Source of the DNA: Bacteroidales bacterium
Lineage (GTDB): Bacteria; Bacteroidota; Bacteroidia; Bacteroidales; UBA3824
Length of the DNA: 16,255 nucleotides
Direction: 5' to 3'
NCBI GenBank assembly: GCA_017543645.1
Contig: JAFYFR010000079.1
Span: 1 to 16,255 of the forward strand
This document shows positions 2,455-14,636 of this stretch, piece after piece. Both the position numbers and the translations under genes were made by a program. Numbering within the stretch: the first letter of the stretch is position 1; every line of letters starts with the position of its first letter. The notes beneath the pieces are model-generated. The model did not search any database and was not told where the DNA came from. It worked only from the letters and a program-made list of their open reading frames with translations.

Positions 2455-2490
2455 ATCTTGCATCACGTAAGCTAATTTTACGTACTTTTG
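2455..2490 (+). promoter_or_regulatory. Bacteroidetes-type promoter for the T9SS protease gene
   Basis: TACTTTTG at 2483-2490 matches the TAnnTTTG -7 box. A TTG (2458-2460) lies 22 bases upstream, inside ATCTTGCATC (2455-2464). Transcription would start near 2496. That excludes the TTG codon at 2488 as the translation start and favours the ATG at 2515. Confidence 0.6.
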
Positions 2491-2514
2491 TATTGTAAAA
2501 AATCGTACAAATAT

Positions 2515-4971
2515 ATGAAAAAAATTATAATTCTGCTAATCATCGCATTATTTTCATTGAATGGAGTTTTTGCTCAGATAACTTCAGGCGAATACAGCCA
2601 CAGCCGTTTTGATGCGTTGCCCAAGTTCGAGGCGGCTATTGAATTGCCAAAGCCTGCCGAAACCAAAGCCAACCTGCCCGACAACTGCATCGGAAGGCTT
2701 ATCATCAGCAATCAGAGTTTTTTCAACAATGCCGACAGCTGCCATGTAGACGGCGGAACGGTCTGGAGGCTGACAGTATCCGCTGAGGACGCATACTCGT
2801 TAGGAGTAAATTTTTCGGAGATAGAACTCGCTAATAATGTGGAACTTTGCCTGTACAGCAACCATGATTTTCTCGGCATGTTGACCTACAAAAATAACAA
2901 CGTCGGCAAGACACTCAAAACCCGCCAAATAATAGGAAACTCTATCACAATCGAACTTTTCGTTCCCAACAATGTTATTCAGAACGACTTTGTAATCAGC
3001 AAGATATGCTACGGTTTCAAAAGTATCGGCAAAGCGTTAAAAACCAAGAAAAAAACCAACAAAACCAACAACGATGTAAACATCAACGGAGAAGCCGGAC
3101 AAAAATGGCAGACCGAAAAACACGGTGTCTGCCACTATCAGTTCGACTGCGACGACGGTTTCTCGTATCTCTGCACGGGGGCGCTCATCAACAACACCAA
3201 CTACGACGCCACACCTTATTTTATTACAGCCGCCCACTGCATCTGCAAAGAGAGCGAGGCCAACTCCATTGTGGTATATTACAACTACGAAAACGACCTA
3301 TACGGAAACCTCTCTTCGCAGATGAAAACCGCATCGGGTAGCACCCTAATAGCCTATCCTACAAAAACATACCATTCAAAACTACGTGATTTTACAGGTC
3401 AGTGGATTACCGACGGAGAATACAACGACTACGACATTTCGCTGCTGAAACTCAACGACATACCACCTCAAAACTATCTTCCGTATTATCTTGGATGGAC
3501 TCTCGACACCAAAAACTACATCGACACAGTGGTTACAATCCACCACCCAAAAGGAGATCCTAAATGTATAGCCGTCAGCAATATGCCGCCATATCTTTCT
3601 ACATACCCCATTAGCGACGAGATTTTTGTGGAAAACACACACTGGTGTATCGACACTTGGCACTTGGGATATACCGAGACAGGTTCGTCGGGTGCACCGC
3701 TTCTCAACCAGAACGGCAAGATTATAGGTATTCTTTCGGGCGGAATGTCCAGCAAATCAAACCCTTACGAAGATTATTTCCAGATGGTTTCAAAAGTATG
3801 GACAGGCGACAACGGCGAAGAACACCACCTTGCCTACTGGCTCGCCAACAACACGGGAATCAGCGAACTAAACGGATTCGACCCATACGCACTCTTTACC
3901 GACTATCCTGCCGCAGTGCTTTCGGGAAACTGGAACTCCGACTCGTCGGCTATTATCCTCAAATGGGATACTTACACAGGAGTAAAAACATTTTCAACTG
4001 ATTTTGAACAGTTTACAACAGTGGAAGACATCCAAAAAGTTTTTCTTACAGTGTCGGATTTCGACCATAAGACTCCATTAGCCACAAAATATGGCGACAA
4101 ACCCACATCATGGTGCATAAAAACCGAAAACGACGGAAGCGAGTTCAAACCTTACTCCGGCACAAAGGTTCTGGCAAGTTTCACAGCCTCCGACGACCAC
4201 ACCGACGACTGCCTTATCACCAAGAAAATCAACATTCAAGACGATCAGATTCTCACATTCCGCACTCGTTCGGTAGGTGGAGAGTCGCTCCTAAACATCG
4301 GCTGCAGTTCTGTTGAACCATCAAGTTTCGACACCCTCGCGCTGTTGACAATCGGCACTGATTGGCAGGATCATATTATTCCGCTCAACAGGTTCAAAGG
4401 GCAGAATATCTACTTGAATTTCAACAACATCACCAAACCTGATAATACTAACGCATTATTGCTCAACAATATCGACATTATGACCGACACCACCGGAATA
4501 GTGTTCGACCCGCAAGGATACCGAATCTATTGTAACAACAAAAAAATTGCAGATATTACCGGCAATAAGACACTTACATACACATTCAACAATATTGAGC
4601 CAAAATCGGAATACACCTTTTATATAGAGACTATCTATGCCGAATCTGAAAAACCGTCGGTCAGCAATCCCGTACAGCTCAACAACATCCCCCCCACTCC
4701 CACCGCCATAAGCGATTTGGTCATAAACGAATCTAACATCTACCCGAATCCCGCCCAAAACTTTATCAATATCGTAGCCAACAACAATTTAGGCTTATGC
4801 ACAATATCGGTTTTCAACACTTCGGGTGTAATGGTAAAACAATACAAAGCCACTGTTAATCAGCAACAACCATACTCTATCGACCTGAGCGGCATCAAAT
4901 CTGGAGTCTACATTATCAACATAAAAAACCACGACCTAAGCATCTGTCAAAAAATCGTGGTGAAACAGTAA
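2515..4971 (+). CDS. Secreted trypsin-like serine protease with T9SS C-terminal sorting domain
   Basis: The 818-residue protein starts with a signal peptide (MKKIIILLIIALFSLNGVFA, residues 1-20). Residues of about 190-455 form a chymotrypsin-fold protease of the lysyl-endopeptidase type. The likely catalytic triad is H241 (FITAAHC), D307 (YDISLLKL) and S392 (GSSGAPLL). The preceding 170 residues look like a propeptide or beta-rich domain. Residues of about 496-655 resemble a cleaved-adhesin (choice-of-anchor J) jelly roll, and about 663-722 a fibronectin type III-like module. Residues of about 740-818 are a Por/T9SS type A sorting domain, with YPNPAQNF at its start and SGVYIINI near its end. 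The protein is therefore predicted to cross the outer membrane by T9SS and be surface-attached or released. An in-frame TTG at 2488 would extend it by nine residues but overlaps the promoter, so I chose the ATG. No hairpin terminator follows, only A-runs. Confidence 0.9.
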   Translation: MKKIIILLIIALFSLNGVFAQITSGEYSHSRFDALPKFEAAIELPKPAETKANLPDNCIGRLIISNQSFFNNADSCHVDGGTVWRLTVSAEDAYSLGVNFSEIELANNVELCLYSNHDFLGMLTYKNNNVGKTLKTRQIIGNSITIELFVPNNVIQNDFVISKICYGFKSIGKALKTKKKTNKTNNDVNINGEAGQKWQTEKHGVCHYQFDCDDGFSYLCTGALINNTNYDATPYFITAAHCICKESEANSIVVYYNYENDLYGNLSSQMKTASGSTLIAYPTKTYHSKLRDFTGQWITDGEYNDYDISLLKLNDIPPQNYLPYYLGWTLDTKNYIDTVVTIHHPKGDPKCIAVSNMPPYLSTYPISDEIFVENTHWCIDTWHLGYTETGSSGAPLLNQNGKIIGILSGGMSSKSNPYEDYFQMVSKVWTGDNGEEHHLAYWLANNTGISELNGFDPYALFTDYPAAVLSGNWNSDSSAIILKWDTYTGVKTFSTDFEQFTTVEDIQKVFLTVSDFDHKTPLATKYGDKPTSWCIKTENDGSEFKPYSGTKVLASFTASDDHTDDCLITKKINIQDDQILTFRTRSVGGESLLNIGCSSVEPSSFDTLALLTIGTDWQDHIIPLNRFKGQNIYLNFNNITKPDNTNALLLNNIDIMTDTTGIVFDPQGYRIYCNNKKIADITGNKTLTYTFNNIEPKSEYTFYIETIYAESEKPSVSNPVQLNNIPPTPTAISDLVINESNIYPNPAQNFINIVANNNLGLCTISVFNTSGVMVKQYKATVNQQQPYSIDLSGIKSGVYIINIKNHDLSICQKIVVKQ

Positions 4972-10745: not shown

Positions 10746-10801
10746 TGGTACCCTTCCGCTTAAAAAGAAACTTATTCAATACTTTTAATTTTTTTATACA
10801 A

Positions 10802-12553
10802 ATGAAAAAAATATTACTACTTACCGCAGCCACGCTACTCTTTATTTCAGGCTGCAAAAACGACGACTCAAAAGACGTTGAGCCGCAAAAACAGGAAAAA
10901 GAAAAGCCCGCTCCAAAACAAACCACGTCCACATTGCACATCAGAAACAACAAGCTCTCCAATCAAGCATACCAAGTGCAGTATTTTGTGGCAGACAACA
11001 TCGGGGTCAAAAAGGGTAATCCATACGACATCATTATCAAGCTTAAGGCTTCCAAGGAGGCCAAGCTGTCGTTCCTTGTCGGCGACTGGCAAAATACAGT
11101 CAGCCTTTCGCTTGACGCTACTACCGAAATGAAAGAACACAAGATTTCATTCGTACCAAAAGCCGATGATGGTCATGTACTATTCCAAACTGGTGATTTT
11201 GTTGGCGATATCTACATTGAAAGCGTAACCATTACCCACAAAGGCAGCGGAAAAACAATTCCACTTACCGAACAACAAAAACACGACACTCTTGTATGGG
11301 CAATGGATCATTGGATTGATGGTATGATGACTGCCACTGATGGTTTTGTAAAAGCTTGGGACGTGGTTAACGAAGCTATCTCGGGTGGCGGTAATATTGA
11401 TGGATATTACGCTCTACAACACTCTTCTAACCCTAACGACGATGCTGTTGTGGTTAAGTCGGGTAATTTCTTCTGGCAAGATTATATGGGCGACATTGAC
11501 TATGTGCGTACAGCAGTAGCCAGCGCAAGAAAGCACTTCAAAGGCGACCCCGACGAACTGAAACTCTTTGTCAACGACTACAACCTTGAAAGCGACTGGG
11601 ACGACAACAAGAAGCTCAAAAGCCTTATCTACTGGGTAGACAAATGGGAAGCTGACGGAATTACAAAAATTGACGGTCTTGGAACTCAAATGCACATTTC
11701 GTATTACAATGACGAAGGAACACAAAAAAGCAAAGAGGAGCACATAGTAAAAATGTTTGAACTAATGGCAGCTACCGGCAAACTCGTTCGCGTATCGGAA
11801 CTTGATATGGGCTATGTGCGTGGTGGCTCGCAACTTAAAACCTCGCAAGTTACCGCCACCGAACTTCAACAGATGGCCGACTATTACGAATTTATCCTCA
11901 AAAAATATTTTGAAATTATTCCTCCTGAACAACAATACGGATTTTGCCAATGGTGTATGACCGATGCTCCCGACAATACCAGCTGGCGTGCTGGCGAACC
12001 TGTGGGTATTTGGAAATCGGGATACATCAGAAAAGCTGCTTACAAAGGTTTTGCACAAGGTCTCGCTGAAACAAAACTCACAGACGACCTTGGCAACTTA
12101 AAACCCCTTAAAAGCTATATTGACCGCACTAAACACCCTATTTTCAAATTCAGCGGTGCGCTCGATGTTAACGACTTTGCAAGTAATTCCACACTCAAAA
12201 CCATCGTAAAGGAAAACTTCGACGAAGTGGTGGCTGGCAATGCCATGAAATACCAATCGTGTGTTAATGGTGGTGGTGATATGGATTTCAGCCGTGTTAA
12301 AACATTTATAACTAATGCAAAAAACGCTGGCGTAACAATTTTTGGACACACACTGGCTTGGCATTCGCAACAACAACCCGGCTATCTGCTCGGACTTATG
12401 AAAGATATTGAAGTAGAAGTTCCCGACGAAGAAAAAGTTGACGTGGTAAATTACTCAATAAATTTTGATGGTATGTCTACATACACAATGTGGCGTTCCG
12501 ACAACGATGCCAACAACAACGTAGACTACTCAGTAAGTATAGTTAAACAATAA
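10802..12553 (+). CDS. Lipoprotein GH10 endo-1,4-beta-xylanase with circularly permuted domain order
   Basis: The predicted lipoprotein (583 aa) cleaves beta-1,4-xylan. Its lipobox is ISGC (Cys18), and the following KNDD resembles a Bacteroidetes surface-export signal. After a charged linker (19-40), residues 41-155 resemble the later part of a CBM4_9 module. Residues of about 155-420 are the C-terminal part of the GH10 barrel: WDVVNEAI with acid/base E191, NDYNLESDWD, GLGTQMHI, nucleophile E333 in VSELDM, and SWRAGEPVGIW. Residues of about 436-525 are the N-terminal part of the barrel: FKFSGALD, GNAMKY with K483, and GHTLAWHSQQ at 515-524. Residues of about 547-583 resemble the first strands of the CBM. 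In normal Bacteroidetes GH10 enzymes the CBM is inserted between these barrel halves, N half first, so this one is circularly permuted. The ATG at 10802 is chosen because it starts the signal peptide. An in-frame ATG at 10745 overlaps the mreD stop and would add 19 residues. Two tandem stops (TAA TAG) end the gene. Confidence 0.85.
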   Translation: MKKILLLTAATLLFISGCKNDDSKDVEPQKQEKEKPAPKQTTSTLHIRNNKLSNQAYQVQYFVADNIGVKKGNPYDIIIKLKASKEAKLSFLVGDWQNTVSLSLDATTEMKEHKISFVPKADDGHVLFQTGDFVGDIYIESVTITHKGSGKTIPLTEQQKHDTLVWAMDHWIDGMMTATDGFVKAWDVVNEAISGGGNIDGYYALQHSSNPNDDAVVVKSGNFFWQDYMGDIDYVRTAVASARKHFKGDPDELKLFVNDYNLESDWDDNKKLKSLIYWVDKWEADGITKIDGLGTQMHISYYNDEGTQKSKEEHIVKMFELMAATGKLVRVSELDMGYVRGGSQLKTSQVTATELQQMADYYEFILKKYFEIIPPEQQYGFCQWCMTDAPDNTSWRAGEPVGIWKSGYIRKAAYKGFAQGLAETKLTDDLGNLKPLKSYIDRTKHPIFKFSGALDVNDFASNSTLKTIVKENFDEVVAGNAMKYQSCVNGGGDMDFSRVKTFITNAKNAGVTIFGHTLAWHSQQQPGYLLGLMKDIEVEVPDEEKVDVVNYSINFDGMSTYTMWRSDNDANNNVDYSVSIVKQ

Positions 12554-12574
12554 TAGTCTTACTTATATGAACAT

Positions 12575-12615
12575 AAAAAAACTGCAACCCTCAAATGAGG
12601 ATTGCAGTTTTTTTT
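12575..12615. terminator. Bidirectional terminator between the xylanase and ptuB genes
   Basis: ACTGCAA pairs with TTGCAGT and, after one C/A mismatch, CCTC pairs with GAGG around the loop AAAT. The stem is flanked by seven As (12575-12581) and eight Ts (12608-12615), so it gives a U-tract in either direction. It lies between convergent genes: 22 bases after the xylanase stop and about 70 bases beyond the ptuB stop. The remaining bases 12616-12688 show nothing further. Confidence 0.9.
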
Positions 12616-12688
12616 ATTGGTGATAAAGTGTTAACTCTCCTTAAACAGTTCAAAGAACAACTATTTTTGTTTAAAAGTAAGTAATCTT

Positions 12689-13423
12689 CTATTTGGGCAT
12701 TGCGATTTTTATCAAAGTCTTTTTAATTTCTTCTAATTCGTTATCCCACAAATAGTTATCTTTTAAATAAGATTCTAATTCCTTGTAAGTTTCATCTTCA
12801 TAGAGAATATAAGTAGAGATTACTGCCGAATATGCGTATTTCGGACCGCAACTTTCTAATACAGATTTAATTTTTGAAATATAATTCCTTTTTTTAACAG
12901 CAGTAGCTGCCATTTTTAACAATTCAAACAGATTTTCTAAATTCTCAGCAACCATAAAACCCATCTTTGACCTTGGATTTATAAAGTGTTCTCTGTCGTT
13001 TATAGCAAGTACATCTCTTGTTGTTTCCCCTTTTTCGTTTCTTGGATAGTATTTGAATGCCTTTACATAAAGGTATTCTTTCGGATTATCAATAAGAGGG
13101 TTGACGATCGGTTCTGCAACGACATCATGGTTGCCTTTTGTGGTGTTACATTTTTTGCATGATGGCAAGAGGTTGCCCCATTCTACAACAAAGTCTTTAT
13201 ATTTGTTCTTGTTCTTAAAATGGTCAATCTCCATATAATTGCTTTCTGTGTTAAGTAGTTGCTCCGAATATGCGCACTTACAGTTGGTCATTTCAAGCAA
13301 TGCCTTCTCGATATATGGTTTCTTCCATACAGGAGAGCCGTCTTGTTTGAATTTTTCTGTCAATTGATGCTTTACTTCGTCTGTGAGTTCGTCAGGCGGA
13401 CCTATGAGATTAATCTTTATCAT
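12689..13423 (-). CDS. ptuB: HNH endonuclease of the PtuB / TIGR02646 type (Septu effector)
   Basis: The 244-residue protein has an HNH nuclease core near its N-terminus: CKCAYSE (48-54), then MEIDHF with D67-H68, WGNLLPSCKKCNTTKGNH with N84, and the zinc ligands C89 and C92. This layout matches the TIGR02646/PtuB family, the nuclease partner of the PtuA ATPase in Septu anti-phage defence. Family members usually have C-x-Y-C at the first zinc site. Here the second Cys is S53, and C48 two residues upstream of C50 may substitute. The C-terminal 140 residues are helical, with no recognised motif. The start ATG lies 14 bases inside the end of ptuA, so translation is likely coupled. The gene is visibly more AT-rich than the plus-strand housekeeping genes, consistent with horizontal acquisition. 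The Septu assignment is inferred from the pair. Confidence 0.82.
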   Translation of the reverse strand: MIKINLIGPPDELTDEVKHQLTEKFKQDGSPVWKKPYIEKALLEMTNCKCAYSEQLLNTESNYMEIDHFKNKNKYKDFVVEWGNLLPSCKKCNTTKGNHDVVAEPIVNPLIDNPKEYLYVKAFKYYPRNEKGETTRDVLAINDREHFINPRSKMGFMVAENLENLFELLKMAATAVKKRNYISKIKSVLESCGPKYAYSAVISTYILYEDETYKELESYLKDNYLWDNELEEIKKTLIKIAMPK

Positions 13424-14636
13424 CGATTTCCATTTGAGATAGTTGTAATTTTAAAAGTCTTCTTGCAGGATTGTTTGGATGGAGAATTTTGATGAGTGTA
13501 TCGTATGCCTGACGAGCCTTTTCAACATCGTTATTATCAAGACCTTCGTCAAATAGTTTATATGTCTCTTGCAAGTAATTAGATTGAATGTCGTTGGATA
13601 ATTTCATCGTATCTCGCAAAATTTCCTCGACAGTCCAACCACTGAAATCGGTAACAGGCGAATGTTCTACTACTATGTTTTCATCTTCGCGGCGCAACAC
13701 ATACAGATTAACTTCTTGCATTGATTGAATTATCAACGGGCTGTGTGTTGTTACAATGAATTGCACATTCTTGAATATCTCTGACACATAAGAAATGATT
13801 TCACGTTGCCATTTTGGATGCAGGTGCAGGTCTATTTCATCAACCAAAACAACGGCACTTTCCAGTAGCGGATTTTCTGATTCTGTGAATGTTTCAAACA
13901 TCCTTTGACACAAATCAACTACCCACGAAAGCATTGATTGATAACCAAATCCAAGTTCGTTGTATCTGAACCAGCCGTCCTTAGTTTTGAAAAGAACATA
14001 ATTACGACCATCATCAGTGCTTTTAAAATCGAAGTCGTCAATTTCAGGAAAAACGTTGCTACATATTACATCGCGTATTTTTTCTAAACGTGTTTTTGCA
14101 ACCTTATTATTGTTTTTTGAAGCATAATCAAGTTGCATTAGCCATTCTTGAATATTTACAAGCCGTTTCTCATGTGTAAACAATGTATCACAATCGTCTC
14201 CTTCTTGATTATGATCCGAAACTGTATTATTGTTGACAGAAGGATAACGGCTTACGCCGTAACCAAAGATGTATAGTTTTTTTAATACATCAGATGTATC
14301 CTGTGGAACTATTGCGTTTGTATACGTCCATTCATTTCTATGATTTATTAAATTACATACAACTTCAATATATGGAGTATTGTTTTTTTGTTTGCGAAAA
14401 AAATTAGGGACTAGTTCTGCGTTAGGCGATTCTTTTGAAAAAACTATTACAGGCCTCATATCCGCTATTGCCTGCAATATTCTTGTCTTTCCCGTATTGT
14501 TATTGCCTAACAATACAGTCCATTGAAAAATTTCATCGTTAGTTTCGGGCTTGCTACAATCAATAGTTACATTTTCCATTCCTTTATAGGATTGGATAGA
14601 TACAGACCTAATTTTAATGTCTTTGTTCACTTTCAT
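13410..14636 (-). CDS. ptuA: AAA/ABC-type ATPase of the PtuA type (Septu defence)
   Basis: This 408-residue SMC/RecF-like ATPase carries Walker A GNNNTGKT (44-51), an ABC-signature-like region GYQSMLSWVVDL (231-242), Walker B VVLVDEID with D266-E267, a D-loop-like LHLHP, and the switch histidine H298 in VTTHSPLI. Helices between the ATPase halves are short, so a long coiled-coil arm is absent. Immediately downstream and overlapping is an HNH nuclease of the PtuB type. This ATPase-plus-HNH pairing defines Septu, where the ATPase is thought to control the nuclease during phage infection. The same pair also serves as the effector of some retrons, but no reverse transcriptase lies in the window. 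It has a good TAnnTTTG box 30 bases upstream. The sequence is AT-rich compared with its neighbours. Without the partner it would be called only an AAA family ATPase. Confidence 0.85.
   Translation of the reverse strand: MKVNKDIKIRSVSIQSYKGMENVTIDCSKPETNDEIFQWTVLLGNNNTGKTRILQAIADMRPVIVFSKESPNAELVPNFFRKQKNNTPYIEVVCNLINHRNEWTYTNAIVPQDTSDVLKKLYIFGYGVSRYPSVNNNTVSDHNQEGDDCDTLFTHEKRLVNIQEWLMQLDYASKNNNKVAKTRLEKIRDVICSNVFPEIDDFDFKSTDDGRNYVLFKTKDGWFRYNELGFGYQSMLSWVVDLCQRMFETFTESENPLLESAVVLVDEIDLHLHPKWQREIISYVSEIFKNVQFIVTTHSPLIIQSMQEVNLYVLRREDENIVVEHSPVTDFSGWTVEEILRDTMKLSNDIQSNYLQETYKLFDEGLDNNDVEKARQAYDTLIKILHPNNPARRLLKLQLSQMEIDDKD

Follow-up and report, generated by a model that had tools for sequence, protein, structure and literature searches.

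Xylanases of glycoside hydrolase family 10 (GH10) with inserted carbohydrate-binding modules (CBMs) are well described in the Bacteroidetes, as exemplified by BiXyn10A/BiXyn10C and Pm25 (PMC5041131, PMC7848910). The CBMs of Pm25 sit between strand 3 and helix 3 of the catalytic barrel, and its gene lies in a XusC/D-type locus (PMC7848910, PMC5041131). The gene considered here occupies positions 10802-12553 (+) of a 16,255-nucleotide stretch of DNA from a Bacteroidales bacterium (contig JAFYFR010000079.1, assembly GCA_017543645.1), the whole of which we term the window, and its 583 codons plus stop encode a lipoprotein. The protein resembles the enzymes above in its barrel with an inserted CBM and its signal peptide and, where Pm25 is concerned, in the XusC/D-type locus and the corresponding place of insertion. 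It differs in containing one CBM where those enzymes contain two and, more fundamentally, in its order: they run barrel front, CBM, barrel rear, whereas the window protein runs CBM rear, barrel rear, barrel front, CBM front.

Outside GH10, naturally permuted glycoside hydrolases are known, as are naturally permuted CBMs. The 1,3-1,4-beta-glucanase of Fibrobacter succinogenes is a natural circular permutant (Tsai 2003, cited in PMC2395249), and certain CBMs are linked to one another by circular permutation (Montanier 2010, cited in PMC4725902). The former parallels the present case as a naturally permuted glycoside hydrolase of a fibre degrader; the latter parallel it as naturally permuted binding modules, but there the module alone is affected, while here module and catalytic barrel are permuted together. 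We take these modules to be CBM36 and CBM60, and the Fibrobacter enzyme to be a GH16 glucanase of rumen origin. That glucanase is a jellyroll of another family and, unlike the window protein, is not known to have an inserted module holding the cut. In GH70, which is related to GH13, the catalytic domain of a barrel glycoside hydrolase has been naturally permuted and, as here, permuted and non-permuted members stand in one family. However, GH70 is another family in which the permutation marks long-separated groups, whereas here both forms are found in related genomes and in the same gene slot. By engineering, a Bacillus xylanase (presumably of GH11) has been permuted, and a beta/alpha barrel enzyme is described as folding when permuted. 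Among the titles and abstract openings of literature on permutation of xylanases, GH10 and glycoside hydrolases, a coverage that mostly excluded subscription papers, we found no natural GH10 permutant.

The rotated domain order of the window protein is confirmed: the CBM rear comes first, GH10 strands 4-8 and a linker lead on to GH10 strands 1-3, and the CBM front closes the chain. The features are as follows, where counts out of 21 refer to the window protein together with 20 permuted protein clusters introduced below.

10802-10855, + strand: lipoprotein signal peptide up to the lipobox cysteine C18, seen in the sequence
10856-10921, + strand: short tether, residues 19-40, attached to the CBM instead of the barrel (predicted local distance difference test below 50 over residues 1-39)
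10922-11266, + strand: CBM rear part, residues 41-155 (matched by residues 37-148 of the solved CBM 4mgs; AlphaFold2 strands)
11267-12067, + strand: GH10 barrel strands 4-8, residues 156-422
11372-11374, + strand: E191, putative acid/base, in the motif WDVVNEA (aligned with residue 131 of 2bnj; invariant in 21/21)
11798-11800, + strand: E333, putative nucleophile, in the motif SELDM (invariant in 21/21)
12068-12109, + strand: linker connecting helix 8, the former C-terminal end, with the former N-terminus ahead of strand 1 (GLA to LK.Y spacing in permuted sequences)
12110-12439, + strand: GH10 barrel strands 1-3, residues 437-546, including K483, H516 and W520 (aligns with the start of solved GH10 enzymes; AlphaFold2 strands; the three residues invariant in 21/21)
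12440-12550, + strand: CBM front part, residues 547-583 (rejoined CBM match; AlphaFold2 strands; 20 permuted relatives end at the corresponding place)
12575-12614, + strand: terminator-like stem-loop with a T run (-20.7 kcal/mol, z -6.2)

An initial sequence-only reading of this DNA had placed the catalytic glutamates and strands 4-8 ahead of strands 1-3, and Pfam, solved structures and AlphaFold2 all agree. PF00331 matches the protein in two stretches (155.7 bits against a curated cut-off of 22.1, E 2.1e-45), which places it within GH10; the best stretch pairs residues 159-418 with profile positions 96-309. In several solved GH10 enzymes, the early part aligns to residues ~445-530 and the later part to residues ~162-420. 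The succession of strands 1-3, CBM and strands 4-8, which is the usual architecture and no defining feature of GH10, is thus rotated in this protein. Residues 37-148 of 4mgs (BiXyn10A CBM1) align to residues 36-147, while its residues 4-29 align weakly (1.2 bits) to residues 543-569. Once the ends are rejoined, 4mgs, the nearest solved module, gives one continuous match (85.5 bits, versus 70.1 unrotated) with a one-residue gap close to the join, placing the new C-terminus in the CBM turn preceding the strand that is now N-terminal. Rotation therefore restores a continuous match to non-permuted relatives, as expected of a circular permutant and as had been anticipated, through the CBM and through the strand order of the canonical relative P0013. 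The proposal that the N-terminal module and the tail are later and earlier parts of one CBM4_9-like domain holds as regards the single domain. The Pfam model CBM_4_9 (PF02018) matches neither the window protein nor the rejoined CBM; in the canonical P0031 a match to it falls below the cut-off (17.0 versus 25.9). Nothing has been lost or doubled: 37 residues after strands 1-3 and 118 before strands 4-8 (counted from residue 41, a start adopted from the initial reading) compare with the 154 that separate the two halves in most single-CBM canonical proteins (69 of 93). The suggested Pfam test on the rotated protein proved uninformative, its PF00331 score hardly differing (156.4 versus 155.7 bits), because the CBM insertion splits PF00331 in either order.

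AlphaFold2 (predicted template modelling score, pTM, 0.74) predicts all eight barrel strands at the expected places, with beta4-8 at residues 185-189, 254-260, 292-302, 328-340 and 378-383, beta1-3 at 449-454, 475-478 and 512-516, and CBM front strands at 546-554 and 576-582. These were assigned by position against P0013, all 18 strands of which are predicted in rotated order at equal pTM. On this model, strands 1-3 and 4-8 should together close one (beta/alpha)8 barrel. A chain-order structure aligner confined its alignment of the permuted model to the strand 4-8 part, its 1us2 row being meaningless at a root-mean-square deviation of 17.2, and the four top Foldseek rows, which reach more than 500 columns only at deviations of 18-20, are equally so; Foldseek and VIA-align work in chain order and therefore cannot show the closure of a permuted barrel.

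The same order recurs in homologues, a check proposed at the outset. Among the best 120 of 7999 scored homologues, 20 are permuted, 99 canonical and one partial, the permuted protein clusters together representing 90 member sequences drawn from ncbi, ena, jgi and lgn. Two named metagenome-assembled genome (MAG) assemblies, one of yak-rumen origin and the other called Tb.RUG.368, carry a permuted gene at the same place with 84-85% identity; across clusters and MAG contigs, the junctions are alike at 53-92% identity. A second profile built from the permuted rows (120 rows shown, covering proteins up to ~1020 residues) ranked those rows at the top by construction, and none of the 14 newly listed proteins among its matches was permuted. 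A search with the junctions (best 120 of 200 candidates) recovered the 20 known clusters, a partial protein (P0136) with the sequence of genome G009, and P0137; the other 29 new proteins were canonical. A tandem-duplicated intermediate (front-rear-front) was not seen among the matches listed in the three homologue searches, again for proteins up to ~1020 residues, and more distant permuted GH10 proteins would escape these searches. The inserted CBM is itself missing in the GH10 relatives P0101, P0130, P0142, L013 and L062 7701-9008.

Residues N190, E191, H298, E333, W384, W404, K483, H516 and W520 are invariant in all 21 permuted sequences. The protein accordingly retains two catalytic glutamates and the conserved subsite residues of GH10, where the roles of E191 and E333, and those of N190, H298, K483, H516 and W520, are presumed from GH10 enzymes in general. 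Between the window and L001, the ratio of nonsynonymous to synonymous substitution rates (dN/dS) is 0.08 over residues 41-583, with 0.07 in the CBM rear, 0.05 in strands 4-8, 0.09 in strands 1-3, 0.17 in the CBM front and 0.27 in the linker; the comparison with L002 gives 0.09 overall, the CBM front reaching 0.34 on few sites. The six permuted coding sequences translated contain no internal stops. The permuted gene looks intact and is under purifying selection, in keeping with the sequence-only view that it is not broken. That view's lipoprotein signal is likewise borne out, Cys18 being present in 20 of the 21 sequences and the remaining one (P0011) lacking its N-terminus. As for its clean terminator, the stem-loop at 12575-12614 is there; a stricter consensus terminator scan does not list it.

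These observations are best read as a true circular permutation whose new termini fall in a turn of the inserted CBM, a reading supported by the independent assemblies, the purifying selection, the kept active-site residues and the ends that rejoin into one CBM. We assign a probability of roughly 0.9 to the gene encoding a putative endo-xylanase of GH10, made as a lipoprotein and related by natural circular permutation to a Bacteroidales GH10 enzyme with a CBM inserted after strand 3. In such a protein the old termini would be joined by the linker of ~13 residues, and the chain would have been opened anew at a tight turn within that CBM. The chain ends would meet by completing one CBM beta-sandwich, which may bring strands 1-3 back to strands 4-8 and close one catalytic barrel. 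Xylan would presumably be bound and cleaved as by the canonical enzyme, in the manner of a retaining endo-xylanase. The lipid anchor, probably at the cell surface, would now lead into the CBM and not the barrel, and because of this move the orientation of the enzyme and its active site at the membrane may differ.

In a sample of 18 draft genomes from the family of G001, the permuted copy is found in six (whole in G001, G002, G007, G012 and G015, cut by a contig edge in G009) and a close canonical counterpart in six (G003, with a different CBM, G005, G008, G010, G013 and G018). G004 contains fragments, G011, G016 and G017 contain other GH10 genes, and G006 and G014 gave no match. The permuted and close canonical forms were seen together in none of the 18 drafts; further GH10 genes, of canonical order, are also present in G007, G012 and G015. 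When 393 genomes were sampled evenly across the order, seven gave a match at E 1e-110 or better; three of these were permuted, all from the family of G001. The permuted gene is a recurring form, here seen only in a small group of relatives.

Upstream of the permuted gene in the two named assemblies lie hisS, purH, mreB, mreC and a small gene, which is mreD by position only, with no Pfam match; downstream lies the gene of a sodium-pump decarboxylase beta subunit. The permuted gene of the window, like that of G001 and G002, stands between the mre genes and this same sodium-pump gene, and the remaining xylan locus is absent. In G007 and G015 it comes after a canonical GH10 gene whose insert is longer, and SusD and SusC-like genes precede the two (the SusC-like gene shows Pfam plug and carboxypeptidase-regulatory domains in G007, carboxypeptidase-regulatory alone in G015). 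The same slot is occupied by the canonical counterpart in G010 and G018, while other genes intervene there in G008 and G013. The contig of G005 begins inside the upstream GH10, no GH10 adjoins the permuted gene of G012, and the canonical copy of G003 ends such a locus, adjoining the sodium-pump gene. The window xylanase shares its strand with the mreD-position gene and starts 56 bases past it (gap 10746-10801; 55 bases in G001 and G002), and may be read from the mre operon.

The linker (GLA to LK.Y) is 13 residues long in 15 of the 21 permuted sequences, that of the window included, 14 in five near-identical ones and 15 in one; the linkers share a pattern, and the permuted relatives end at the corresponding CBM turn. 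Because linkers and both junctions are alike in all copies, a single origin is favoured, most simply, we infer, by tandem duplication with trimming at both ends. Two observations weigh against the preferred account. Firstly, a single clade of permuted rows is tolerated by strands 1-3 (p 0.317, 118 columns) but rejected by both strands 4-8 (p 0.002) and the CBM (p 0.0016), the half trees holding 62 of 82 rows after 20 distant, long-branched or fragmentary ones were dropped and the CBM tree 53. Secondly, the position of the gene beside mreB and mreC, outside a xylan locus, in the window, G001 and G002 is what might be expected of a remnant.

The first of these would be met by several independent permutations of one gene at the same CBM turn, as would the four changes of order needed on the barrel tree of 82 representatives, which are forced by its starred branches. 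We consider this the most durable alternative, though a doubtful one. The 21 copies agree in linker length, linker pattern and both cut sites (P0011 lacking its N-terminus), and strands 1-3 are compatible with a single clade. Moreover, the block of CBM rear and strands 4-8 and that of strands 1-3 and CBM front are each contiguous in both forms, and recombination between canonical and permuted genes can therefore explain the tree conflict without new permutations. The trees of the two barrel halves also reject each other, part of which may be topology noise, as the 118-column half is poorly resolved; the segment conflict likely reflects recombination or repeated change. Mosaic genes were also seen among canonical copies: the GH10 genes of L003/L058 (G003) and L055 (G013) have their first 60 residues in common and group together in strands 1-3, and their strands 4-8 group with different permuted clades.

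A fusion of two neighbouring GH10 paralogues, in which the upstream member of a tandem pair supplied strands 4-8 and the downstream member strands 1-3, appears improbable. Several loci do contain two GH10 genes in tandem, strands 4-8 of the upstream gene in G007 are 70% identical to those of the window, the mutual rejection of the half trees would follow, and in the strands 4-8 tree the separation of the window clade from the upstream type is not firm (support 34). However, the two CBM parts complement each other and leave a gap of one residue near the join, an outcome that chance fusion would not produce, and the barrel tree groups all 15 permuted rows with 41 canonical rows, apart from the upstream type (SH-aLRT 99). 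That the gene is a decaying pseudogene or a rearranged remnant without function, as its place among the mre genes could suggest, is very hard to reconcile with low dN/dS in all four modules, coding sequences free of internal stops and active-site residues conserved throughout. An assembly misjoin of a canonical gene or tandem pair, the like of which P0137 may represent (it comes from a short contig and looks chimeric, a permuted tail being joined to an unrelated domain), can be practically dismissed for the permuted order, since 20 of the 120 listed homologues share it with like junctions and two assemblies carry it at the same place.

If circular permutation with recombination is pursued further, it could tentatively be proposed that, within a single family of fibre-degrading Bacteroidales, one gene of the xylan locus comes in a canonical and a permuted topological allele. 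These would be mutually exclusive per genome and swap blocks, each contiguous in both alleles, by homologous recombination. Topology would then have moved from lineage to lineage, or reverted, on more than one occasion, and the permutation might be kept as it moves the tether from barrel to CBM, turning the enzyme on the cell surface. We regard this extension as speculative. Natural permutations are usually noticed long after the event, between diverged groups. Here related genomes carry both forms in the same kind of slot, the barrel halves reaching up to 80-84% identity from one form to the other, and the steps, cost and benefit of permutation are therefore open to study with natural pairs. 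A module inserted in a barrel can, it appears, be the site at which a chain opens. Ordinary annotation overlooks such rearrangements: P0018 and P0019 are annotated as endo-1,4-beta-xylanase and P0020 as GH35 family endo-1,4-beta-xylanase, with the permutation unremarked.

Two further regions of the window deserve mention. Between the xylanase terminator and the sodium-pump gene lies a Septu-type defence pair, absent from that place in G001 and G002, which consists of a PtuB-like HNH nuclease (12689-13423, - strand) and a PtuA-like ATPase (13410-14636, - strand), with best PADLOC matches of 280 and 331 bits; in NCBIfam the pair falls below the cut-offs. Window positions 12552-13393 are 98.7% identical in DNA to positions 10378-11219 of L055, up to its contig end; in the window this stretch starts at the permuted xylanase's stop codon, and in G013 (L055) 7 bases past the canonical GH10 stop. 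As the flanking GH10 genes of the two are only ~69% identical, this looks like a recent transfer of terminator and PtuB gene at the same site. Elsewhere, positions 2488-4971 (+) encode a type IX secretion system (T9SS) type A sorting domain protein with a choice-of-anchor J region just below the cut-off.
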